From JACRDV01 sp024860865 [NCBI: Methanobacteriota archaeon] (GTDB taxonomy: Archaea > JACRDV01): 12,498 nt of DNA. Where the stretch lies: the NCBI GenBank assembly GCA_024860865.1, contig JACRDV010000098.1, positions 1-12,498 on the forward strand, given 5' to 3'. A model generated the notes under the pieces. The model worked only from the letters and a program-made list of their open reading frames with translations. It did not search any database and was not told where the DNA came from. Every line of letters starts with the position of its first letter. Positions within the stretch are counted from its first letter, which is position 1. Position numbers and translations under genes: made by a program. Shown here one piece after another: positions 2,276 to 11,873 of this stretch.

Positions 2276-4642
2276 ATGAAAAATTCTATCATGAAAAATT
2301 ATGATAAATCTACTACTTCAGACTTGCTTATCAAAGGCGAAGGTTTAGAGGTATACATAGGAGAAATTGCGGAAGAGACCTGGAAAGAGGAAAAAATTGG
2401 ACCGACTCCAGAGCCAAATGTGACTGCTCTGCGAGAATGGGATTTCAAACTTCTTAAGCGCTATCCTCCTTTTTATTCGCCAGTTTGTGACCTGTGTTGT
2501 TTGTGCACTACTGGGAAATGCGATTTGTCCAAAGGAAGAAAGGGAGCCTGTGGAATTGACATAAAAACCCAGCAAGCGCGTGTGAGTTTATTGACTAGCT
2601 GCATGGGAACCTCTGCTCATGCTGGTCACGCACGCCACCTTTTGGAGCATTTAATCGAGAAATACGGCCCTACCCACCCGATTGACCTCGGTTTAAACAT
2701 TGAAGTGGAGGCCCCACTTATCCGGCTCGTATTAGGGATTCGCCCTAAGAAGCTGATTGACCTCCGAAAACCGGTCGATTATGTTGAAAAACAGCTCATT
2801 CATTTGATGTCTGCCACAAATATTGGGCAGGAAAAAAGTCACTTAGACTTTGAGTCCAAGGCATTGCATGCGGGCATGCTCGATTTAATTGCCCTTGAAG
2901 TTGCTGACATTGCACAAATTGTTTCGCTCAAAATGCCAAAGGCTGACCCTGAAGCTCCATTAGTTGACTTTGGGCTTGGAACAGTAGATACTTCAAAGCC
3001 AGTTGTATTATGCATCGGGCACAATGTGTTGCCAGCCGCATCTGTCGCAGAGTATCTTGAGAAAACTGGTTTAAATGATAGAGTTGAAATATGTGGAGTC
3101 TGTTGCACCGCTCAAGATATCGCAAGGATAAATCCAAAGGCAAAGGTCATTGGTTCTTTAGCTAGACAGCTCTATGCAGTTAAATCAGGAATTGCTGATG
3201 TAATTATTGTTGACGAACAATGTGTTAGAACAGATACTATGGAAGAAGCGCAGAAAATTAAGAGCGTTGTGATTGCAACTAATGACAAAATTTGTATGGG
3301 ATTACCCAACCGAACAGATGATGACCCGGATAAAACAGTTGAAGAATTAGTTAATGGAGTTATACCTGGGGCTCTAATTCTCGATCCTGAAGTTGTAGGT
3401 GAAGTAGCAGTCAAAGCAGCTCTTCGGCTCTCTGATCAAAGGGCTCAATTTAAAAAATTGATAAAAAAAGAAGAGTTAATCGAGCTCGCTAAAAAATGCA
3501 CTGAGTGTCAGATGTGCAACCGTGCTTGCCCAAACAACTTGCCGGTCTATGAAGGAATGAGACTAGCAAAAGAAGGTTATTTAGAAAAACTTGCGGAGAT
3601 TTATGAACTATGTATTGGATGTGGAAGATGCGAGGTTGAATGTAAAACCAAGCTTCCGATAATCAGCATGCTTTCAAAGGCTGGAGAGAAAAGTTTCAAA
3701 GATGAAAAGTATAAGCTAAGGTGTGGAAGGGGACCAATTCAAGACGTTGAAATTAGAAATGTTGGGCGCCCAATTGTTTTCGGAGAAATCCCTGGGGTTA
3801 TTGCATTCGCAGGCTGCCCTAACTATCCAAAAAGTGGAAAAGAACTCGTTGAGATAGCAGAGGAATTTTTAAAGCGACGCTATATAATTGTGGCAACTGG
3901 GTGCTCAGCCATGAGCCTTGCAATGCATAAAGATGAGGAAGGAAAGACCATTTATGAAAAATATCCCGGAAATTTCGATGCAGGCGGCATTGTTAACCTC
4001 GGTTCTTGTGTTACAAATTCACATGCAGCAGGAGCTGCTGTTAAAATAGCGAGCATATTTGCTAGAAGACCTCTCCGTGCAAATTATGAAGTTATTTCAG
4101 ATTATATACTCAACAGAATTGGAGCGGTTGGCATTGTCTGGGGAATCATGGCGCAAAAAGCATTTGCAATTACTACTGGTCTAAACCGGCTTGGGATCCC
4201 AATTATATTTGGACCATATGGGTCAAGATTCAGGAGGCTATTCCTTGGAAGAAAAGATCTCCCAGAGAATTGGGAGATATATGACTATAGAACTAAAGAA
4301 AAAATGCTGGGTGAACCTGCACCAGAACATCTTTCTTGCGTAGTTGAAACAAAAGAGGAAGCAATTGTTATGGCCGCCAGGCTCTGTATTAGACCAAATG
4401 ATACAGCTATTGGCAGAAAAATTAAACTCTCCCATTATATCGATCTCAGCAAAAAGTATCTTGGAGAAACGCCGTCTGATTTAGATTTATATGTTCGATC
4501 TGAAAATGATATACCAATTACAATTAAAGAGGAAGTCCTTCAATTCCTGAGTGCAAAAGGATGGAAACCGCGAAAAATTCCACTAGATCCAACTATATTG
4601 GACCCTGCTAAATTGCATCCATCTCTATTAAGGCCGGAGTGA
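2276..4642 (+). CDS. cdhA: CODH/ACS alpha subunit (nickel-iron carbon monoxide dehydrogenase)
   Basis: A 788-aa cytosolic subunit that interconverts CO2 and CO at a Ni-Fe-S C-cluster and supplies CO to CdhC. The N-terminal cysteine set for the B/D clusters is at Cys71, 74, 75, 77, 82 and 92. Probable C-cluster and nearby residues are His249 (IGHN), Cys276/277 (CGVCCTAQD), Cys316 (EQCVRTD), Cys514 (GCPNYPKS), Cys543 (GCSAMS) and Cys578 (GSCVTNS). Between these lies a two-cluster ferredoxin insert, Cys408/411/414/418 and Cys446/449/452/456, the hallmark of the archaeal form. The length is normal (about 780-810 aa in methanogens). The first ATG is chosen because the TATA spacing points to it; a second in-frame ATG at 2291 lies in a repeated ATGAAAAATT (2276-2285 and 2291-2300). 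First gene of the operon. Confidence 0.97.
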   Translation: MKNSIMKNYDKSTTSDLLIKGEGLEVYIGEIAEETWKEEKIGPTPEPNVTALREWDFKLLKRYPPFYSPVCDLCCLCTTGKCDLSKGRKGACGIDIKTQQARVSLLTSCMGTSAHAGHARHLLEHLIEKYGPTHPIDLGLNIEVEAPLIRLVLGIRPKKLIDLRKPVDYVEKQLIHLMSATNIGQEKSHLDFESKALHAGMLDLIALEVADIAQIVSLKMPKADPEAPLVDFGLGTVDTSKPVVLCIGHNVLPAASVAEYLEKTGLNDRVEICGVCCTAQDIARINPKAKVIGSLARQLYAVKSGIADVIIVDEQCVRTDTMEEAQKIKSVVIATNDKICMGLPNRTDDDPDKTVEELVNGVIPGALILDPEVVGEVAVKAALRLSDQRAQFKKLIKKEELIELAKKCTECQMCNRACPNNLPVYEGMRLAKEGYLEKLAEIYELCIGCGRCEVECKTKLPIISMLSKAGEKSFKDEKYKLRCGRGPIQDVEIRNVGRPIVFGEIPGVIAFAGCPNYPKSGKELVEIAEEFLKRRYIIVATGCSAMSLAMHKDEEGKTIYEKYPGNFDAGGIVNLGSCVTNSHAAGAAVKIASIFARRPLRANYEVISDYILNRIGAVGIVWGIMAQKAFAITTGLNRLGIPIIFGPYGSRFRRLFLGRKDLPENWEIYDYRTKEKMLGEPAPEHLSCVVETKEEAIVMAARLCIRPNDTAIGRKIKLSHYIDLSKKYLGETPSDLDLYVRSENDIPITIKEEVLQFLSAKGWKPRKIPLDPTILDPAKLHPSLLRPE

Positions 4643-4646
4643 TTCA

Positions 4647-5177
4647 ATGGAAGACCGGGTTGTCCCTTGGCAAATTGGTAACATTGCTTATTCAACTCAT
4701 GCTAAAGTATTATATCCGCCGGAAATGGCTCGTGTAATTAATCGAGCAAAGAGACCACTAATTGTCGTTGGCTCAGGCCTAACGGAAAAACTTGAACTAA
4801 ATTTATTTGATTATGTTATTGAGCTCTCAAAAACACGAAATTTACCGGTTGTTGCCTCTGGAAACACCTATAAAGAATTTATTGCGCGCAATTTTAAACC
4901 AGTTGCGATTTTGGGCATCCTTGAGTTAATAAACCTAATTAAAGACCAAAATTGGCGCGGATTCGATGGGAAAGGGCAATATGATGTATTAATCTTGCTA
5001 GGAATTTTCCCTCTCCTTGCAAATCAGGCTTTATTTGCTGCTAAACACTTTGCTTCAATTATAACAATTAGCATTGATCAGCATTATGAGCCCAATGCGA
5101 CATTTTCCTTCTCAAATTCAACGGTTGAAGAATGGAAAGAAAATTTAAATGAGTTATGCGCCAATCTGAAAAAATAG
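4647..5177 (+). CDS. cdhB: CODH/ACS epsilon subunit
   Basis: A 176-aa partner of CdhA, forming the alpha2-epsilon2 CODH module of archaeal complexes. The family has a Rossmann-like fold; a role in electron transfer through a bound flavin has been proposed but is not settled. The sequence shows the typical start IGNIAYSTHAKVLYPPEMA, a beta-strand/Gly turn at RPLIVVGSGL (about 36-45) and a second nucleotide-fold core around YDVLILLGIFPLLANQAL. The ATG follows the cdhA stop by 4 bp, and its GGAG site (4636-4639) lies within the end of cdhA. Length matches the family (about 170 aa). There are no Fe-S cysteine motifs, as expected. Confidence 0.95.
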   Translation: MEDRVVPWQIGNIAYSTHAKVLYPPEMARVINRAKRPLIVVGSGLTEKLELNLFDYVIELSKTRNLPVVASGNTYKEFIARNFKPVAILGILELINLIKDQNWRGFDGKGQYDVLILLGIFPLLANQALFAAKHFASIITISIDQHYEPNATFSFSNSTVEEWKENLNELCANLKK

Positions 5178-5188
5178 AGGGTGAAGTG

Positions 5189-6601
5189 ATGTTCAAGGAC
5201 CTTCCAGTTGATGTTGGAGTTGTTTATGAAGGAGAAAGAATTAGAAGCAAAGAGATGTTTGTTGAATTTGCTGGACCAAAATCATTTGGAGCTGAACTGG
5301 CTCAAACAAGAAGGATGGATGAAATACAAGATGGAAAGATAACAATAATTGGTCCAGAAATTACCGAAATGAAAGAAGGCGGCCGGTATCCATTTGCAAT
5401 TTTAGTTGAAGTGGCTGGGGAAAAGGTTGAGAAAGATTTAGAGGGGATTTTAGAGCGCAGAATTCATGAATTTATTAACTATGTTCAAGGGGCCATGCAC
5501 TTAAACCAACGCGATGCAATTTGGTTGAGAGTCAATAAAGAGTCACGAAAAAAAGGCCTCACATTAAATCATATAGGCAAAGCTATAACTAGATTGTTTA
5601 AGGCTGAATATCCTTTTATTGAAAAAGTCCAAGTTACATTCATCACTGATGAGTCTAAAGTTAAAGAATTTGTTAAAAAGGCAAGAGAGATCTATGGTGA
5701 GCGCGATGCAAGGGTTAGGGGAATAAAAGAAGAAGAAGTTGATAAGTTCTATGGCTGTGTGCTTTGCCAATCATTCTCCCCCTCTCACGTTTGTGTTATA
5801 ACCCCTGAGAGAATTTCGCTTTGTGGAGCAATCTCTTGGCTGGATGGGCGTGCTGCTGCTAGGATTAACCCAGAGGGAGCGAATTTTGAGGTTGAAAAGG
5901 GTAATCTCTTAGACCCAATAAGAGGGGAATATGAAGGGGTGAACAAAGTTGTTGAAAAGAGGTCGGGGGGGTCTGTAAAAAGATTTTTCTTGCACAGTAT
6001 CTTTTCATTCCCCCACACAAGTTGCGGCTGCTTTGAAGCAATCGCATTCTATATTCCAGAAGTGGATGGGATTGGAGTAGTTACCAGGGACTTCAACGGT
6101 TTAACTCCATTTGGGATTCCCTTTTCAACTATGGCTGGCCAGGCAGGCGGTGGAGTTCAGATTAGTGGTTTCACTGGGATTGGAACAGAATATTTCCGCT
6201 CTAAAAAATTCTTCCAAGCAGATGGAGGATATAATCGCCTGGTTTGGTTACCAAAAATTTTTAAAGAGAGAATAAAAGATGCGATCCCCCCAACGCTTTA
6301 TGATAAAATTGCAACTGAGGAGACTGCTCCAGATTTGAAAGCGCTAAAAGAATTTTTACAAAAAGTCAATCATCCTATCACTGAACGTTGGAAAGAAAAG
6401 GTACCTGCAGCTGTACCTCAAATGGCAGAAGTTGTTGAAGCGAAAAATGAAGCTAAGGCTAGCGAGAGACCTGAAGTTGTAGCTCCGGTTGCTTTGCCAA
6501 CTGCAATGGTTCCAGCTGCTGGCGGGATTAAAATCATCCTAAAGAATGCAAAGATTTACGCTGAAAAAGTGATTATTGTCCGCCGGGAGGAGAAAAAATA
6601 G
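5189..6601 (+). CDS. cdhC: CODH/ACS beta subunit (acetyl-CoA synthase)
   Basis: A 470-aa enzyme that joins a methyl group, CO and CoA into acetyl-CoA (or cleaves it) at the Ni-Ni-[4Fe-4S] A-cluster. The A-cluster cysteines are visible: Cys190, Cys193, Cys202, Cys212, Cys279 and Cys281 (GCVLCQ, HVCV, LCGA, SCGC). This agrees, with a shift of one residue, with the pattern known for Methanosarcina CdhC. As in other archaea, the bacterial N-terminal CO-channel domain is absent. An Ala/Pro/Glu-rich linker (about 405-446) leads to a short C-terminal tail. The ATG at 5189 is preferred to the in-frame start at 5156: it has a strong GAGGGTGA site (5177-5184), and the upstream start would overlap cdhB. 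Gap to cdhB is 11 bp. Confidence 0.96.
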   Translation: MFKDLPVDVGVVYEGERIRSKEMFVEFAGPKSFGAELAQTRRMDEIQDGKITIIGPEITEMKEGGRYPFAILVEVAGEKVEKDLEGILERRIHEFINYVQGAMHLNQRDAIWLRVNKESRKKGLTLNHIGKAITRLFKAEYPFIEKVQVTFITDESKVKEFVKKAREIYGERDARVRGIKEEEVDKFYGCVLCQSFSPSHVCVITPERISLCGAISWLDGRAAARINPEGANFEVEKGNLLDPIRGEYEGVNKVVEKRSGGSVKRFFLHSIFSFPHTSCGCFEAIAFYIPEVDGIGVVTRDFNGLTPFGIPFSTMAGQAGGGVQISGFTGIGTEYFRSKKFFQADGGYNRLVWLPKIFKERIKDAIPPTLYDKIATEETAPDLKALKEFLQKVNHPITERWKEKVPAAVPQMAEVVEAKNEAKASERPEVVAPVALPTAMVPAAGGIKIILKNAKIYAEKVIIVRREEKK

Positions 6602-6604
6602 CAG

Positions 6605-7366
6605 ATGCAAAAAAGAACAGTTATAGCAGTTAGCGGCAAAGGTGGAACAGGGAAGACAATTGTCGCTGCTTTGTTAGTTAAAATTTTGACTGGAAATTCT
6701 AAGAGCATTTTAGCAATTGATGCTGATCCAGATTCAAACCTGCCTGAGGCGCTTGGAGTTGAAGTCAAAGGAACTGTTGGCGGAATTCGAGAGAAATTGC
6801 TTTCTGGAAGGGATCAAATCCCACCTGGTGTAGTGAAGCGTGACTTGCTTGAATATCAGATTATGGAAATACTAACAGAGACACCAAATTTCGATCTTTT
6901 AGTTATGGGGCGCCCAGAAGGACCGGGCTGCTATTGTGCAGTCAACCATTTGTTGCGCGAGATAATCGATACTTTTGCAAAAAATTATGATGTGGTAGTT
7001 ATTGATACAGAAGCTGGGCTAGAGCATTTGAGCAGAAGGACTACTCGAGATGTAGATACCTTATTGGTTGTGACTGATCCGACTAAGCGCGGACTAATGA
7101 CTGCAAAGCGGATTAAAGACTTAGTCAAAGAGCTGAACATTAGTATAAATAAAATATATGTAATCGCAAACCGCGTTACTGAACCAACAATTGGACCGAT
7201 AAAAAAATCTGCAGCTGAACTTGGATTAACATTAATAGGTATAATCCCGGAAGATCAAAACATAACTCAATTTGATTTAAATGGCAGACCAATAATTGAG
7301 CTATCTCCAAACTCGCCAGCATTAAAATCGATTGCTCAAATTGCACAAGCATTGGAGTTATTTTAA
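6605..7366 (+). CDS. cooC: CooC-type nickel-insertion ATPase (first copy)
   Basis: A 253-aa P-loop ATPase of the SIMIBI/MinD class, inferred to load nickel into the CODH C-cluster or ACS A-cluster. The deviant Walker A motif SGKGGTGKT is at 10-18, DADPDSNLPEALG at 39-51 follows switch I, and the CooC signature Cys-X-Cys is at Cys109/Cys111 (GPGCYC). The Walker B-like strand is VVVIDTEAGLEHLSRR. The ATG lies 3 bp after the cdhC stop, with GGGAGGAG (6585-6592) 12 nt upstream inside cdhC. Its position after cdhABC matches methanogen cdh operons. It differs clearly from the second copy at 10409 in the 55-100 region, so the two may serve different metal centres. Confidence 0.92.
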   Translation: MQKRTVIAVSGKGGTGKTIVAALLVKILTGNSKSILAIDADPDSNLPEALGVEVKGTVGGIREKLLSGRDQIPPGVVKRDLLEYQIMEILTETPNFDLLVMGRPEGPGCYCAVNHLLREIIDTFAKNYDVVVIDTEAGLEHLSRRTTRDVDTLLVVTDPTKRGLMTAKRIKDLVKELNISINKIYVIANRVTEPTIGPIKKSAAELGLTLIGIIPEDQNITQFDLNGRPIIELSPNSPALKSIAQIAQALELF

Positions 7367-8532
7367 TGAAGAAAGATTTAGCTGAATTGCTTAAGCTGTT
7401 AAAAGATGTAGATTCACTCGAGCTTGAAAAGGTTAGAATAGAAGCTGAAGAACTTGAGCTTGATTTATCATCACCTGCAGTCCAAACTATATTAACTGAG
7501 CTCCCCAAGGTTGTTCCAAAACTTGTTGAACAAAAATTCCAGTTTCCAGTTGAATCTTATCTTGGCCAAGTTGCAGAAGTCCAACTTGGAGCTGCGAGAG
7601 CTGAAGGTGGAACAAGAGGGAAAATTGTAAAGGTTGGTGGAGATAAAGCCCCTCCATTTTATAGGTTTGATTCAACTATAGTTAACAGACCAGTAATTGC
7701 TTTTGATGTTTTTGATACACCCCAACCACAATTTCCAAAAGTTCTCAAGGAAGAATGGAAAGATGTTTGGGAAGACCCAGCTGCTTGGGCAAAAAAAGCA
7801 GTTGAGAGGTATGAAGCAGATTTAATAACTATTCACTTAATTAGTGCTGATCCATTAATTAAAGACACCGCGCCAAAAGAAGCTGCTAAAACTGTTGAAA
7901 AGGTCCTGCAAGCTGTTGATGTCCCAATAGTAATAGGAGGCTGTGGTGCTCCAGAAAAAGATCCTTTTGTGCTCGAGGCTGCGGCTGAAGTTGCTCAAGG
8001 AGAACGATGCCTGTTGGCCTCAGCAACCTTGGATAGTGATTATAAACGGGTGGCTCAAGCTGCCCTAAAATATAATCATGTTGTTCTGTCCTTCACTTCA
8101 ATGGACATCAACAACCAAAAAGAGTTGAACAGATATCTTCTGAAAGAGGGATTACCTCCAACCTCAATAATTATGGATCCAACTACTGGTGCACTTGGTT
8201 ATGGACTAGATTATACCCTAAGCCTAATGGAACGGATTAAACTCAGTGCACTTAGAGGAGAGAAAGAGTTACAAATGCCAATATCTAGTGGAACAACAAA
8301 TGCTTACGGAGCGAGAGAGAGTTGGAAAAAGAGGGATGAGTGGGGGCCCAGAGAATACAGGGGTCCACTCTGGGAAATTGTAACCGGTCTAACTGCTACA
8401 CTGGCAGGCGCTAATATGCTAATGATGCTCCACCCAACTGCAGTTCGAATTTTAAAAGAGATTATTGATAGCTTAACCACAACTGAAGGGTATGGACCAC
8501 TTATTGAAAATTGGATTGCTCAAATCAGGTGA
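7366..8532 (+). CDS. cdhD: CODH/ACS delta subunit (corrinoid Fe-S protein small subunit)
   Basis: A 388-aa subunit that pairs with CdhE to form the corrinoid protein carrying the methyl group between tetrahydropterin and the A-cluster. The protein is a TIM barrel preceded by an alpha-helical N-terminal extension of about 80 residues rich in Leu and Glu. Family stretches include FYRFDSTIVNRPVIAFDVFD, a GGCGAPEKDP loop, MDPTTGALGYGLDYTLSLMER, and a Trp-rich C-terminal segment with EWGPREYRGPLWEIVTG. The ATG shares one base with the cooC stop (TAATG) and has GGAG at 7354-7357, so coupling is likely. The length is close to the shorter archaeal CdhD forms. No internal break is seen. Confidence 0.95.
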   Translation: MKKDLAELLKLLKDVDSLELEKVRIEAEELELDLSSPAVQTILTELPKVVPKLVEQKFQFPVESYLGQVAEVQLGAARAEGGTRGKIVKVGGDKAPPFYRFDSTIVNRPVIAFDVFDTPQPQFPKVLKEEWKDVWEDPAAWAKKAVERYEADLITIHLISADPLIKDTAPKEAAKTVEKVLQAVDVPIVIGGCGAPEKDPFVLEAAAEVAQGERCLLASATLDSDYKRVAQAALKYNHVVLSFTSMDINNQKELNRYLLKEGLPPTSIIMDPTTGALGYGLDYTLSLMERIKLSALRGEKELQMPISSGTTNAYGARESWKKRDEWGPREYRGPLWEIVTGLTATLAGANMLMMLHPTAVRILKEIIDSLTTTEGYGPLIENWIAQIR

Positions 8533-8537
8533 ATTTT

Positions 8538-8999
8538 TTGCCATCAGCAATTGAAATTTACAAATATCTCCCAAAAACCGATTGTAAGTTATGCAAAGAG
8601 ATCACTTGCATGGCATTCGCCATTAAGGTAGCTAAGGGTGAACTAGCAATTGATGATTGCCTCGTATTGAAAAGCCCTGATTATAGCGGGCAATATCAAA
8701 AACTCCAAAAAATGTTGCCAACAAAGAGAGAAGTTACTGGATTGATCATTTATGGAGAGAAATGCAATGGCTGCGGAAATTGTGTGATAGCTTGCCCAGT
8801 TAATGTTTCATCAAACTTAATGATTGCTGGCGGAAAAGGTCCAGAAACTGGAGATGTTGTGCTAAGGATTGAAAATGGGAAGGTTATTATTGCTGATTTA
8901 AAAAAGTGCAGGAGATTTGAGGAAGGAGGAGACGAGGCGGCTAAATCCTGCAGAGTTTGTGCTGAAGTTTGCCCAACTGATGCAATTGATTTCAAGTAG
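8538..8999 (+). CDS. CdhE-like Fe-S domain fused to a two-cluster ferredoxin
   Basis: A 153-aa protein with two parts. Residues 1-60 copy the N-terminal [4Fe-4S] domain of CdhE: SAIEIYKYLP, Cys16, Cys19, Cys24 and Cys41, with CMAFA shared exactly. Residues 70-153 form a ferredoxin with Cys76/79/82/86 (CNGCGNCVIACP) and a second cluster Cys124, 138, 141 and 145, whose first two cysteines are spread apart by 13 residues. The start chosen is TTG at 8538, because AGGTGA (8527-8532) lies 5 nt upstream and overlaps the cdhD stop; GTG at 8529 is an alternative. Position between cdhD and cdhE, 10 bp before cdhE, suggests it delivers electrons to the corrinoid protein, perhaps to reactivate oxidised Co(II). 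That role is inference. The ferredoxin half recalls small ferredoxins of formylmethanofuran dehydrogenase clusters. Confidence 0.88.
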   Translation: MPSAIEIYKYLPKTDCKLCKEITCMAFAIKVAKGELAIDDCLVLKSPDYSGQYQKLQKMLPTKREVTGLIIYGEKCNGCGNCVIACPVNVSSNLMIAGGKGPETGDVVLRIENGKVIIADLKKCRRFEEGGDEAAKSCRVCAEVCPTDAIDFK

Positions 9000-9009
9000 G
9001 TGGCTCGAT

Positions 9010-10407
9010 GTGAAGCGAATTTCTCCCATTGAAATCTACAACCTATTGCCAGGAACGAATTGTGGAGAATGTAAAGAAAGCTCTTGCATGGCATTTGCAA
9101 CCAAATTGCTCAATCGAGAAGCAAATATTTCGCTTTGTGCTCCAATTGAAAAACCAGAATACAAACCAAAAAAAGAAAAATTAATTGAAATCCTGTCACC
9201 ACCGATCAAAGAAGTGACTATTGGTACTGGAGAAGGTGCGGTTGCAATCGGCGGAAAAGTTGTTATGTACAGACATGACCTTACTTTTCATAATCCTACT
9301 GCATTTGCAATAGATGTCCATGATGAAATGCCAGAAGAAGCTTTAATTGATCGAATAAAATTTGTTCAAAACTTTAAAGTAGAAAGGATTGGTAAAGTTC
9401 TAAAATTAAATTTAATAGCTGTTCGCTCAGTTTCTAATGATCCTAAAAAGTTTGCAAATACAATTGATATTGTTCTCAAAAACTCAAACTTTCCGCTAAT
9501 TCTATGTTCATTTGATCCGACCGTGCTTGAAGCTGGATTAAAACTTTCAAGTGAAAGGCGGCCTTTGATCTATGCAGCTACAAAAGAAAACTGGGAGCAA
9601 GTTGCAGGGTTAGCTAAAAAATATAAATGCCCAGTTGCAGTTTTTGTGCCAAACAACCTTGATTTGCTCACATCGATAGCTTCTTGGCTAAAAGAAAGGG
9701 GAGTTGAAGATTTAGTTTTAGATCCAGGTACTCTAATATTGGGAGCATCATTGGCAGATACTCTTGACAACTTTGTGATGCTGAGGCGAGCTGCGATTGA
9801 AAGAGGGGATAAAAGAATCGGTTATCCACTATTGGGGGTGCCAGCGGTAGTTGGGCTAATTATTCAGGATCCAGTTGAAACACCGCTTAGAGAAGCGACT
9901 ATTGCGGCGATCTTAATGAATAGATATGCTGATGCTCTAATATTGCATACAACTGAAATTTGGGCTTTATTAGGTTTAATGACCATTAGGCAAGATATAT
10001 ACAGTGATCCAAGGATCCCAAGTAAAGTTCAGCCAGGAGTGTATACATATGGACAACCCGATGAAAGAAGCCCTGTGTTGGTGACCTCTAATTTTGCTTT
10101 AACTTACTATACTGTTGTTGGGGATATTGAAAGCGCAAAACTTAACTGCCATCTTTTAGTTCTTGATACAGAAGGCCTTAGCGTGGAAACATCTGTGGCT
10201 GGAAGAAAGTTTACAGCTGAGAAACTTGCAGATTTAATTAAAACTTCTGGAATAGAAAAAAAAGTTAAACATAAAAAATTGATTATTCCTGGATTTGCTG
10301 CTCGATTAAAAGGAGATATTGAGGATGCAACTGGTTGGGAAATAATGGTTGGTCCAAGGGATTCTTCTGAAATTCCAAGTTACTTAACAAAACACTGGAG
10401 CAGCTAG
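9010..10407 (+). CDS. cdhE: CODH/ACS gamma subunit (corrinoid Fe-S protein large subunit)
   Basis: A 465-aa subunit that binds the corrinoid cofactor and a [4Fe-4S] cluster and carries the methyl group to CdhC. The N-terminal Fe-S domain uses Cys18, Cys21, Cys26 and Cys43 (NCGECKESSCMAFA). A TIM-barrel middle part follows, with VMYRHDLTFHNPTAFAIDVH and VEDLVLDPGT, and a C-terminal corrinoid-binding region contains SNFALTYYTVVGDIES and LIIPGFAARLKGDIED. GTG at 9010 is the likely start: AGGTGG (8998-9003) sits 6 nt upstream and the protein then begins just before SPIEIYNLLP, as in relatives. An in-frame ATG at 8980 lacks a ribosome site and would overlap the preceding gene. Length agrees with the family (about 460 aa). 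Confidence 0.96.
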   Translation: MKRISPIEIYNLLPGTNCGECKESSCMAFATKLLNREANISLCAPIEKPEYKPKKEKLIEILSPPIKEVTIGTGEGAVAIGGKVVMYRHDLTFHNPTAFAIDVHDEMPEEALIDRIKFVQNFKVERIGKVLKLNLIAVRSVSNDPKKFANTIDIVLKNSNFPLILCSFDPTVLEAGLKLSSERRPLIYAATKENWEQVAGLAKKYKCPVAVFVPNNLDLLTSIASWLKERGVEDLVLDPGTLILGASLADTLDNFVMLRRAAIERGDKRIGYPLLGVPAVVGLIIQDPVETPLREATIAAILMNRYADALILHTTEIWALLGLMTIRQDIYSDPRIPSKVQPGVYTYGQPDERSPVLVTSNFALTYYTVVGDIESAKLNCHLLVLDTEGLSVETSVAGRKFTAEKLADLIKTSGIEKKVKHKKLIIPGFAARLKGDIEDATGWEIMVGPRDSSEIPSYLTKHWSS

Positions 10408-10408
10408 A

Positions 10409-11185
10409 TTGAAAGTTGCAATTGCTGGTAAGGGTGGAACTGGAAAAACAATTGTTGCAAGTACTTTAGCGAGAATTCTTGCAAGAAAGGGATTTAGAGT
10501 TATTGCAGTTGATGTTGATCCAACCCTCAATTTAGCTTCGAGCCTTGGAATCGAACTTAAAGAAAAGAAGCCTATCTCACAAATGAAAGAATTGATTGAA
10601 AACCGAACGGGAGCTAGGCCTGGAGAAGGGTTTGGTGGCTTTTTTAAACTCAATCCAAAAGTTGATGATGTTCTCGATAAGTTTGGAATAGCTGGACCTG
10701 ATGGAGTCAAACTTTTGCTCGTTGGAACAGTCGAGCGCGGTGGAGAGGGTTGCTTTTGCCCAGCTAGTGCATTTCTGAGGGCATTATTAAGGCATTTAGT
10801 TTGGAAAGAAAAAGACATGATAATACTGGATATGGAAGCTGGTATTGAGCATCTAGGCAGAAAAACTGCTGAAAATGTTGATGCGTTTATAATAATGGTT
10901 GAGCCTTCTCAAAAGTCAATTGAGGTTGCTAAACAAATTAATCAATTAGCACAAGATATTGGAATTAAAAAAATTTTTGCAATAGCTAATAAAGTCCTAA
11001 GTGAAGTTGATGTAAAAAATATCTCGAATTCGCTTTCTGCTGTTGGAATTAAACTAATTGGAACAATTCCATTTGACCAAAATATTACAAAGGCAGATGC
11101 TATGGGGAAAGCATTAATTGATTTTGCGCCATCAGCCCCTTCTGTTCAAGCTATTGAAGAGATTTCAATTAAATTGGCTGGCTGA
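10409..11185 (+). CDS. cooC: CooC-type nickel-insertion ATPase (second copy)
   Basis: A 258-aa P-loop ATPase with deviant Walker A AGKGGTGKT (6-14), DVDPTLNLASSLG (35-47) and Cys-X-Cys at Cys115/Cys117 (GEGCFC), plus MEAGIEHLGRKTAENVDA. Its 55-110 region (PISQMKELIENRTG, LNPKVDDVLDKFGI, VERGGEGCFC) resembles bacterial CooC such as Carboxydothermus CooC1 more than the first copy in this operon does. TTG at 10409 is the start, 1 bp after the cdhE stop, with GGAG (10397-10400) 8 nt upstream. It is the last gene of the operon. A metallochaperone role for CODH or ACS is well supported by family; which metal centre it serves is not known. Confidence 0.92.
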   Translation: MKVAIAGKGGTGKTIVASTLARILARKGFRVIAVDVDPTLNLASSLGIELKEKKPISQMKELIENRTGARPGEGFGGFFKLNPKVDDVLDKFGIAGPDGVKLLLVGTVERGGEGCFCPASAFLRALLRHLVWKEKDMIILDMEAGIEHLGRKTAENVDAFIIMVEPSQKSIEVAKQINQLAQDIGIKKIFAIANKVLSEVDVKNISNSLSAVGIKLIGTIPFDQNITKADAMGKALIDFAPSAPSVQAIEEISIKLAG

Positions 11186-11333: not shown

Positions 11334-11873
11334 GTGACAAAAGCAGAAGCAACAAAAATAACACAGTCAAAAGCAGATGAAGAAAAATTTGAAAAATATT
11401 ACATGCATTTTCTTGCTGGAGAATTGATGCACGAAGTTTTGTTTGGTACTTTACCAAACAAACTTAAAGCGTATGAAGGAATGGAAGAAGAGGAAATCTC
11501 CCGCATGTTAAGAGAAATCTCTGCTGAGGCTATTGTCAATGCTATTAATCTAGGTGGTGTTGTTTCATCCCATGTTGCACTACTTGAAAGTTTTGAGGAT
11601 AAAGTGACACTCTGTTATAAGATTTATGAATCAATGGGATTCAAATTTTGCCATAACATCTTTAAAGAAACCAAGGACTCTATCACAATCCAAGTAACCG
11701 AATGCCCGCACATAGAATATACAAAAAAGAATCCTCTTGCATGCTTTTCTTGCATGGGTTTAAAGCTAGGAATTTTGAAGGTAGTTTTTGGAATTGATAT
11801 TAAAAAACTAAATGTTCCAAAAAGGTTGGCTCTTGGAGACGATTGTTGCCTGATAGAAATCCCAAAGAAATAA
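11334..11873 (+). CDS. Unassigned cysteine-containing protein, possibly a V4R/MetOD1-like sensor domain
   Basis: A 179-aa soluble protein that I do not firmly recognise. An N-terminal helical half (about 1-75) is charged and Glu/Lys-rich. The C-terminal half (about 90-179) is alpha/beta with a set of cysteines: Cys94, Cys106, Cys124 (ECPH), Cys137/Cys140 (CFSC) and Cys171/172 in a GDDCCLIEI end. The layout, with CP, a Gly-containing helix (MGLKLGILKVVFG) and a final GD..C..I strand, resembles small ligand- or metal-binding domains of the V4R, methanogen output domain or ATC-hydrolase kind. This is a pattern impression only. The GTG start at 11334 has GGTGGTT at 11323-11329. It lies 148 bp after the cdh operon, so it may be separately transcribed, and it precedes a membrane protein and a KaiC-like ATPase. 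Confidence 0.82.
   Translation: MTKAEATKITQSKADEEKFEKYYMHFLAGELMHEVLFGTLPNKLKAYEGMEEEEISRMLREISAEAIVNAINLGGVVSSHVALLESFEDKVTLCYKIYESMGFKFCHNIFKETKDSITIQVTECPHIEYTKKNPLACFSCMGLKLGILKVVFGIDIKKLNVPKRLALGDDCCLIEIPKK

Follow-up and report, generated by a model that had tools for sequence, protein, structure and literature searches.

Reductive activation of the corrinoid iron-sulfur protein (CFeSP) is served by a single [4Fe-4S] cluster, as stated in the part of the source available to us, and the same part sets out the HgcA-HgcB pair, a precedent in which a ferredoxin accompanies a corrinoid protein related to CdhE (PMC7305189). The accessible portion of the work on the methanogenic CODH/ACS structure names CODH, ACS and CFeSP subunits and no part resembling the ferredoxin described below (PMC11474084). 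CODH of Ca. Ethanoperedens is bound by an additional electron-transfer subunit, the gene of which lies in the ACDS operon. The same work describes an archaeon, other than that of the window, in which CODH and formylmethanofuran dehydrogenase (Fwd) each have an extra electron-transfer subunit of similar build, which, as far as the excerpted text goes, is a precedent for both enzymes sharing such a part (PMC11493965). Methanosarcina acetivorans has a fwdG2B2D2 cluster, for which the text at hand describes no link to cdh (PMC2838876).

The window, that is, the whole stretch of 12,498 nucleotides analysed here, holds an archaeal CODH/ACS operon with all eight genes on the + strand, separated by gaps of at most 10 bases or joined by small overlaps. 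One of them, between cdhD and cdhE, encodes a protein that is here named FdX. The features are the following.

2276..4642, + strand: cdhA, CODH alpha (TIGR00314, 1164 bits)
4647..5177, + strand: cdhB, CODH epsilon (TIGR00315, 139 bits against a cut-off of 101)
5156..6601, + strand: cdhC, ACS beta (TIGR00316, 697 bits)
6605..7366, + strand: CooC-like ATPase 1, named from context, with family matches of the CbiA/MinD/ParA type
7366..8532, + strand: cdhD, corrinoid protein delta (TIGR00381, 527 bits against a cut-off of 253)
8526..8532, + strand: CAGGTGA, putative ribosome-binding-like site for FdX, as read from the sequence
8538..8999, + strand: FdX, open frame of 153 aa with a TTG start, a FwdG-type dicluster ferredoxin with an N-terminal CdhE-type FeS domain
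8538..8738, + strand: N-terminal FeS domain and linker of FdX, residues 1-67 (PF04060, identity with CdhE, fold matches)
8739..8996, + strand: FwdG-type ferredoxin half of FdX, residues 68-153 (phmmer match to 5t5i_G)
9010..10407, + strand: cdhE, corrinoid protein gamma (NF003195, 601 bits against a cut-off of 306)
10409..11185, + strand: CooC-like ATPase 2, named from context, with family matches of the CbiA/MinD/ParA type

The gap between cdhD and FdX is 5 bases and that between FdX and cdhE is 10 bases, the start of cdhE being taken as GTG 9010, a chosen start in a frame whose longest ORF begins at 8917. The AGGTGA at 8527-8532 overlaps the stop of cdhD and is followed by 5 bases and then the TTG of FdX. 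A scan near FdX with a bacterial promoter model gave 2 promoter-like sites against 2.0 expected, and 0 terminators against 0.7. On both sides FdX is flanked by cdh genes and not by the fwd genes that would be looked for around a FwdG, and no rnf gene was found among the window proteins scanned against domain families. The first-pass annotation had placed the gene between two corrinoid-protein genes; its position between cdhD and cdhE stands, but the term is loose for cdhD, as the corrinoid is carried by CdhE. The window's CdhE has an intact FeS motif, CX2CX4CX16C, of its own. A chance or mis-called open frame was ruled out by conservation, and an assembly artefact by the occurrence of the same fusion in at least 48 of 394 archaeal genomes.

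Two CooC-like ATPase genes (6605-7366 and 10409-11185) are present in the window, more than one being listed only for the window, L102 and L111 among the loci read. The gene at 11334-11873 (+), 3' of the second, gave a weak match to MetOD1 (methanogen output domain 1), of 27.6 bits where the cut-off is 23.8, and may encode a sensor or a regulator. Transcribed away from the cdh operon are genes for a KH-domain protein (1568-2074, - strand) and for a CoaBC-type flavoprotein with DFP and Flavoprotein domains (321-1556, - strand), the latter putting a coenzyme A synthesis gene beside acetyl-CoA synthesis.

FdX is a real and conserved protein in which two known modules are combined, with a kinship to FwdG. 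A Pfam scan placed PF04060 at residues 11-42 (E 1.2e-11) and Fer4/Fer4_7 from residue 71 on, in a frame that is open throughout, and so bears out the earlier description of a 153-aa fusion between a CdhE-type FeS domain and a two-cluster ferredoxin. Residues 3-67 are identical to the N-terminus of the window's CdhE at 30 of 66 positions (45%, E 1e-10), for which reason the FeS domain common to the two is not due to chance; the kinship claimed for the first 60 or so residues was correct. In the PDB, the FeS half matched the bacterial corrinoid iron-sulfur protein 2h9a (E 1.3e-7). The ferredoxin half matched 9sfi_U, labelled only '4Fe-4S binding protein' (E 2.5e-15), and FwdG 5t5i_G at E 2.4e-12 with phmmer and E 2.7e-16 with a ten-sequence profile, which again had Fwd and CFeSP chains on top. 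Judged by sequence similarity, FwdG is the closest relative of this half with a described function. Part of FdX thus matches a characterised subunit with another role, one that the first-pass annotation had not named.

The presumed [4Fe-4S] ligands are Cys16, 19, 24 and 41 in the FeS domain, and Cys76, 79, 82 and 86 together with Cys124, 138, 141 and 145 in the ferredoxin half. These 12 cysteines were invariant in 10 of 10 aligned FdX sequences, C-R-R at residues 124-126 is likewise invariant, and the three cluster motifs and C-R-R were kept in all 50 FdX sequences read. Such motifs and the gene context point to a protein with three predicted [4Fe-4S] clusters and to a low-potential electron carrier, and the electron-transfer role proposed at the outset fits the invariant cysteines. 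PF04060 preceded the ferredoxin half in 10 of 10 FdX scanned, so that FdX is not, like FwdG, free of further domains. An AlphaFold2 model built with 7 sequences had a mean pLDDT of 70.3 and a pTM of 0.46, with the FeS half confident and the ferredoxin half poorly modelled (pLDDT 35-76 by blocks of ten). With this model, the top four Foldseek matches were chains of the CFeSP large subunit and the rest were weak; only 2ycl_A had an E below 0.001, the next three CFeSP chains being at 0.0012, 0.0019 and 0.034.

FwdG (5t5i_G) and the ferredoxin half both have a GGKGP stretch between the cluster motifs; FwdG, of 82 aa, aligns to this half only, whereas FdX adds PF04060 and the C-R-R loop. CdhE and the CFeSP large subunit (2h9a, 2ycl, 4c1n) share the N-terminal FeS domain and are also the top fold matches, but FdX is without the corrinoid domain and has a ferredoxin in its place. 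The RnfB chain 8ahx_B aligned to FdX profile positions 7-95, which cover the FeS domain and the first Fer4 cluster; as it spans parts of both halves, it is a precedent for the pairing of an FeS domain with Fer4. FdX differs from RnfB in scoring 31.2 bits against a family cut-off of 68.7, in its FwdG-type second half and in that no membrane helix is apparent on reading. HgcB is a dicluster ferredoxin paired with a CdhE-related corrinoid protein, and no FeS domain is described for it in the part of the source at hand (PMC7305189); FdX scores 20.5 bits against the HgcB cut-off of 99, and the HgcA model matches the window's CdhE under its cut-off. The first-pass annotation did not regard the fusion as a standard subunit. 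No description of FdX as a CODH/ACS component was found in a search of main texts from the open-access literature; the pairing itself has the precedent of 8ahx_B.

The gene neighbourhoods were read at 50 loci, namely those of 48 FdX genomes and L004 and L005, with the duplicates L003, L006, L007 and L008 and the truncated L011 left out. The order cdhD-FdX-cdhE was present in 14 of the 50, with both neighbours found in 13 and L099 at a contig end, and these loci span four archaeal families (f1 with 1 genome, f2 with 10, f57 with 2 and f99 with 1). As would be expected of an ACDS subunit, FdX is therefore encoded within the cdh operon in several lineages. FdX adjoins fwd genes (fwdB, fwdD or fwdA) in 28 of the 50 loci, with cdh genes sharing the run in 7 of these. 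The check proposed earlier, whether the gene always sits between cdhD and cdhE, thus had a negative outcome, and the designation as an extra operon member is right for the conserved slot but too narrow for a family that is not confined to cdh operons.

FdX is directly 5' of fwdB in 21 loci, with fwdD next in 18 of these, and the order FdX-fwdB-fwdD occurs in 22 of the 50 overall. An array FdX-fwdB-fwdD-cdhA-cdhB-cdhC-cooC was found in four (L121, L123, L125 and L131). In three, cdhE is followed by FdX and then by fwd genes, L135 having about 1.7 kb and two ORFs between cdhE and FdX. In two loci FdX comes after genes for a FwdF-like polyferredoxin and for another ferredoxin, and in L006, which duplicates one of these loci, the best solved match of this second ferredoxin was FwdG (E 3.6e-16). 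The remaining six have FdX elsewhere, L103 among them at a contig edge. Neighbour names rest on NCBIfam with one representative each: FwdB, FwdA, FwdC and HdrA2 were over cut-off, the polyferredoxin matched FwdF under cut-off, and FwdD was named by position and shared cluster and not by family match. At nine loci (L112 to L119 and L122) a small protein is encoded directly 5' of FdX-fwdB, which in L112, the one scanned, belongs to the ferredoxin-thioredoxin reductase beta family (PF02943).

CODH usually exchanges electrons with ferredoxins. FdX could accordingly be a ferredoxin dedicated to CODH (CdhAB), through which electrons leave or enter that enzyme, without contact to the corrinoid. The ACDS-operon subunit of Ca. 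Ethanoperedens that binds CODH speaks for this in the text available (PMC11493965). Against it, the FeS half resembles CdhE, and cdhA was found near FdX only in the window and not in the 13 other cdh-type loci, several of which end at contig ends; we regard such a role as improbable.

The FdX profile matched in 63 of the 394 archaeal genomes, with full-length proteins in at least 48 (the window's own included) and partial ones in 15; since scoring was limited to nine candidates in each genome, the true number may exceed 48 of 394. In the same genomes CdhC, accepted at E up to 1e-30, was present in 98 and FwdB, accepted at E up to 1e-40, in 115. Among the 48 genomes with full-length FdX, 44 had CdhC, 45 had FwdB, 41 had both and none had neither, and the FdX family belongs to the archaeal Wood-Ljungdahl pathway. 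Homologues apart from cdh genes, which the first-pass annotation had set down as counting against its proposal, do exist at the fwd-adjoining loci, yet no FdX genome was without both enzymes. FdX and CdhC occurred without FwdB in three genomes (G048, G328 and the window's own, G000), and FdX and FwdB without CdhC in four (G257, G248, G099 and G293). The absence of CdhC is partly an assembly effect, as cdhE adjoins FdX in G248, and in G099, which is 99% complete, CdhC was not found at E 1e-30. Full-length FdX was found in at least 44 of the 98 CdhC genomes and hence not wherever CODH/ACS is; no full-length FdX turned up in 48 of the 89 genomes that have CdhC together with FwdB, from which it follows that CODH/ACS can do without it. 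The window's genome shares only the rank of domain with every other genome compared, which suggests that it is alone in its phylum within this set.

It was also considered that FdX is a mere FwdG paralogue working with Fwd, its place in the cdh operon reflecting co-regulation of pathway genes. The FwdG-type ferredoxin half with its GGKGP stretch agrees with this, and so do the 21 loci with FdX-fwdB and the two in which FdX follows FwdF-like and FwdG-like genes. In G245, a genome of the FdX-fwdB-fwdD type, the best solved matches of CdhC and CdhA were the ACDS chains 9c0s_E (E 5.8e-229) and 9c0q_A (E 0), which we take to be from a Methanosarcina. The fwdG2B2D2 cluster of M. acetivorans has the order found in the 22 loci, as given in the portion of the source consulted, and we infer that its FwdG2 is FdX (PMC2838876). 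The conserved cdhD-FdX-cdhE slot argues against a mere paralogue, as do the fwd genes of the cdh-type genomes. In ten of these the surroundings of one FwdB were read, G000, G048 and G328, where FwdB was not found, and G379 lying outside the sample. In nine of the ten the fwd run has a FwdG-like gene of its own for a protein of 208-246 aa, with a two-motif ferredoxin start and a resemblance to the FwdG-like protein of L006; none was seen in the fwd run of G023. Read by eye, these nine proteins lack both C-R-R and a preceding FeS domain. Since the fwd runs of nine genomes own a FwdG-like gene, the FdX of the cdh type is, in these nine, additional and not simply FwdG. A further point against the paralogue is that FwdB was not found in the window's genome and FwdA gave weak partial matches only, which may be an assembly gap, as Ftr and Mch score over their cut-offs in this assembly, the completeness of which is 92.45%. 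On balance the paralogue is an unlikely explanation. The FwdG-like proteins of the fwd runs in L141 and L143-L150 (e.g. L143:3677-4333) carry a C-terminal extension of about 140 aa that looks winged-helix-like by eye.

The joint operons raise the question of whether FdX couples CODH and Fwd directly, sparing or bypassing free ferredoxin. Such coupling would agree with the four FdX-fwdB-fwdD-cdhA-cdhB-cdhC-cooC runs and the three of the cdhE-FdX-fwd type, with the 41 of 48 FdX genomes that own both CdhC and FwdB, and with the match of each half to one partner's protein. However, 43 of the 50 loci are without genes of both enzymes in the FdX run, although some end at contig ends; shared regulation alone can yield joint operons; and in the 14 loci with FdX inside the cdhD-cdhE pair no fwd gene was named nearby. 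Direct coupling is therefore held to be doubtful. A related proposal, to which we give a small probability, makes FdX a common subunit that would dock to CODH/ACS by its CdhE-like domain and to Fwd by its FwdG-like half. If it were true, electrons would pass directly between the two branches, methyl and carbonyl, of the Wood-Ljungdahl pathway in archaea.

In a tree of the 50 FdX sequences a starred set of 21 comprised 13 of the cdhD-FdX-cdhE rows, two fwdF-type rows and six other rows, and the fwdB-type rows formed separate groups. The window's FdX was a long branch outside both, with no firm support. From the C-R-R cysteine to the next cysteine there are 11-13 residues in all 14 cdh-type rows (13 in the window) and 8-9 in 22 of 25 rows of the FdX-fwdB (21) and FdX-fwdB-cdhA (4) types, 3 of the 21 FdX-fwdB rows having 11-14. 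The loop is 11 residues in the six other rows, 13 and 14 in the two fwdF-type rows, and 8, 8 and 11 in the three cdhE-FdX-fwd rows. Its length follows clade rather than neighbourhood, and the value of the window agrees with the cdh side. In all 17 CdhE rows read, of which two represent one gene, the FeS motif of CdhE was intact. A tree of 66 FeS domains (50 from FdX and 16 from CdhE, the duplicate L003 row being dropped) was poorly resolved. Recent duplication of the neighbouring CdhE domain was not supported, and the CdhE rows as one clade were not rejected (p-AU 0.54).

The best reading of these results is that FdX transfers electrons for both of the enzymes with which the archaeal Wood-Ljungdahl pathway handles CO2 and CO at low potential, the family being encoded with Fwd in one set of lineages and with CODH/ACS in another that includes the window. 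For the window itself we tentatively propose, at slightly less than an even chance, that FdX is a dedicated CODH/ACS component that links the CdhD-CdhE corrinoid protein with either a carrier or CODH by transferring low-potential electrons. The ferredoxin half would feed the FeS half, which, by analogy, could bind CdhDE and pass the electrons on to it. The most likely single use would be the return of Co(II) to Co(I). The proposal draws on the cdhD-cdhE slot, the co-occurrence with CdhC and FwdB, the motifs kept in 50 of 50 sequences, the CdhE-like FeS half, the separate FwdG-like genes, the loop length and the HgcA-HgcB precedent. Counted against it are the fwd-adjoining loci, the 48 of 89 genomes without FdX, G099, the RACo matches given below, the intact FeS motif of CdhE, the long branch of the window, loops of 11-14 residues outside the cdh type and the poor model of the ferredoxin half. 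Fwd has no corrinoid, and as 28 of the 50 loci adjoin fwd genes, a corrinoid-specific job is not general to the family; a wider role, serving or linking CODH/ACS and Fwd, fits the joint operons.

The first-pass annotation had likened the purpose of FdX to that of the activator RACo, a comparison that is now weakened. The RACo C-terminal domain PF14574 was absent among the 12 Pfam families matching FdX at E 0.001. A RACo-family match was found in 9 of the 14 cdh-type genomes, that in G000 being a fragment at a contig start which covers 84 positions and contains one stop, and FdX is accordingly unlikely as a replacement of RACo. The RACo-family proteins of these genomes may serve other methyltransferases.

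To our knowledge it is not settled how the archaeal CODH/ACS keeps its corrinoid reduced, nor how electrons are shared between the reduction of CO2 to CO and that to formyl-methanofuran. FdX combines a half of either enzyme system and is encoded in operons of both, and so offers a concrete protein with which to approach the two questions, within a carbon-fixing pathway that is among the oldest.

A variant of the protein was seen in two Methanocellales MAGs, L009 (5776-6267) and L010 (about 1942-2428), with a C-R-R ferredoxin half of 59% and 55% identity to FdX, in a gene convergent with cdhE, end to end. In front of this half stand about 78 residues of a different N-terminal sequence, for which L009, the one scanned, gave no Pfam match, and in these proteins something else seems to have taken the place of the FeS domain.
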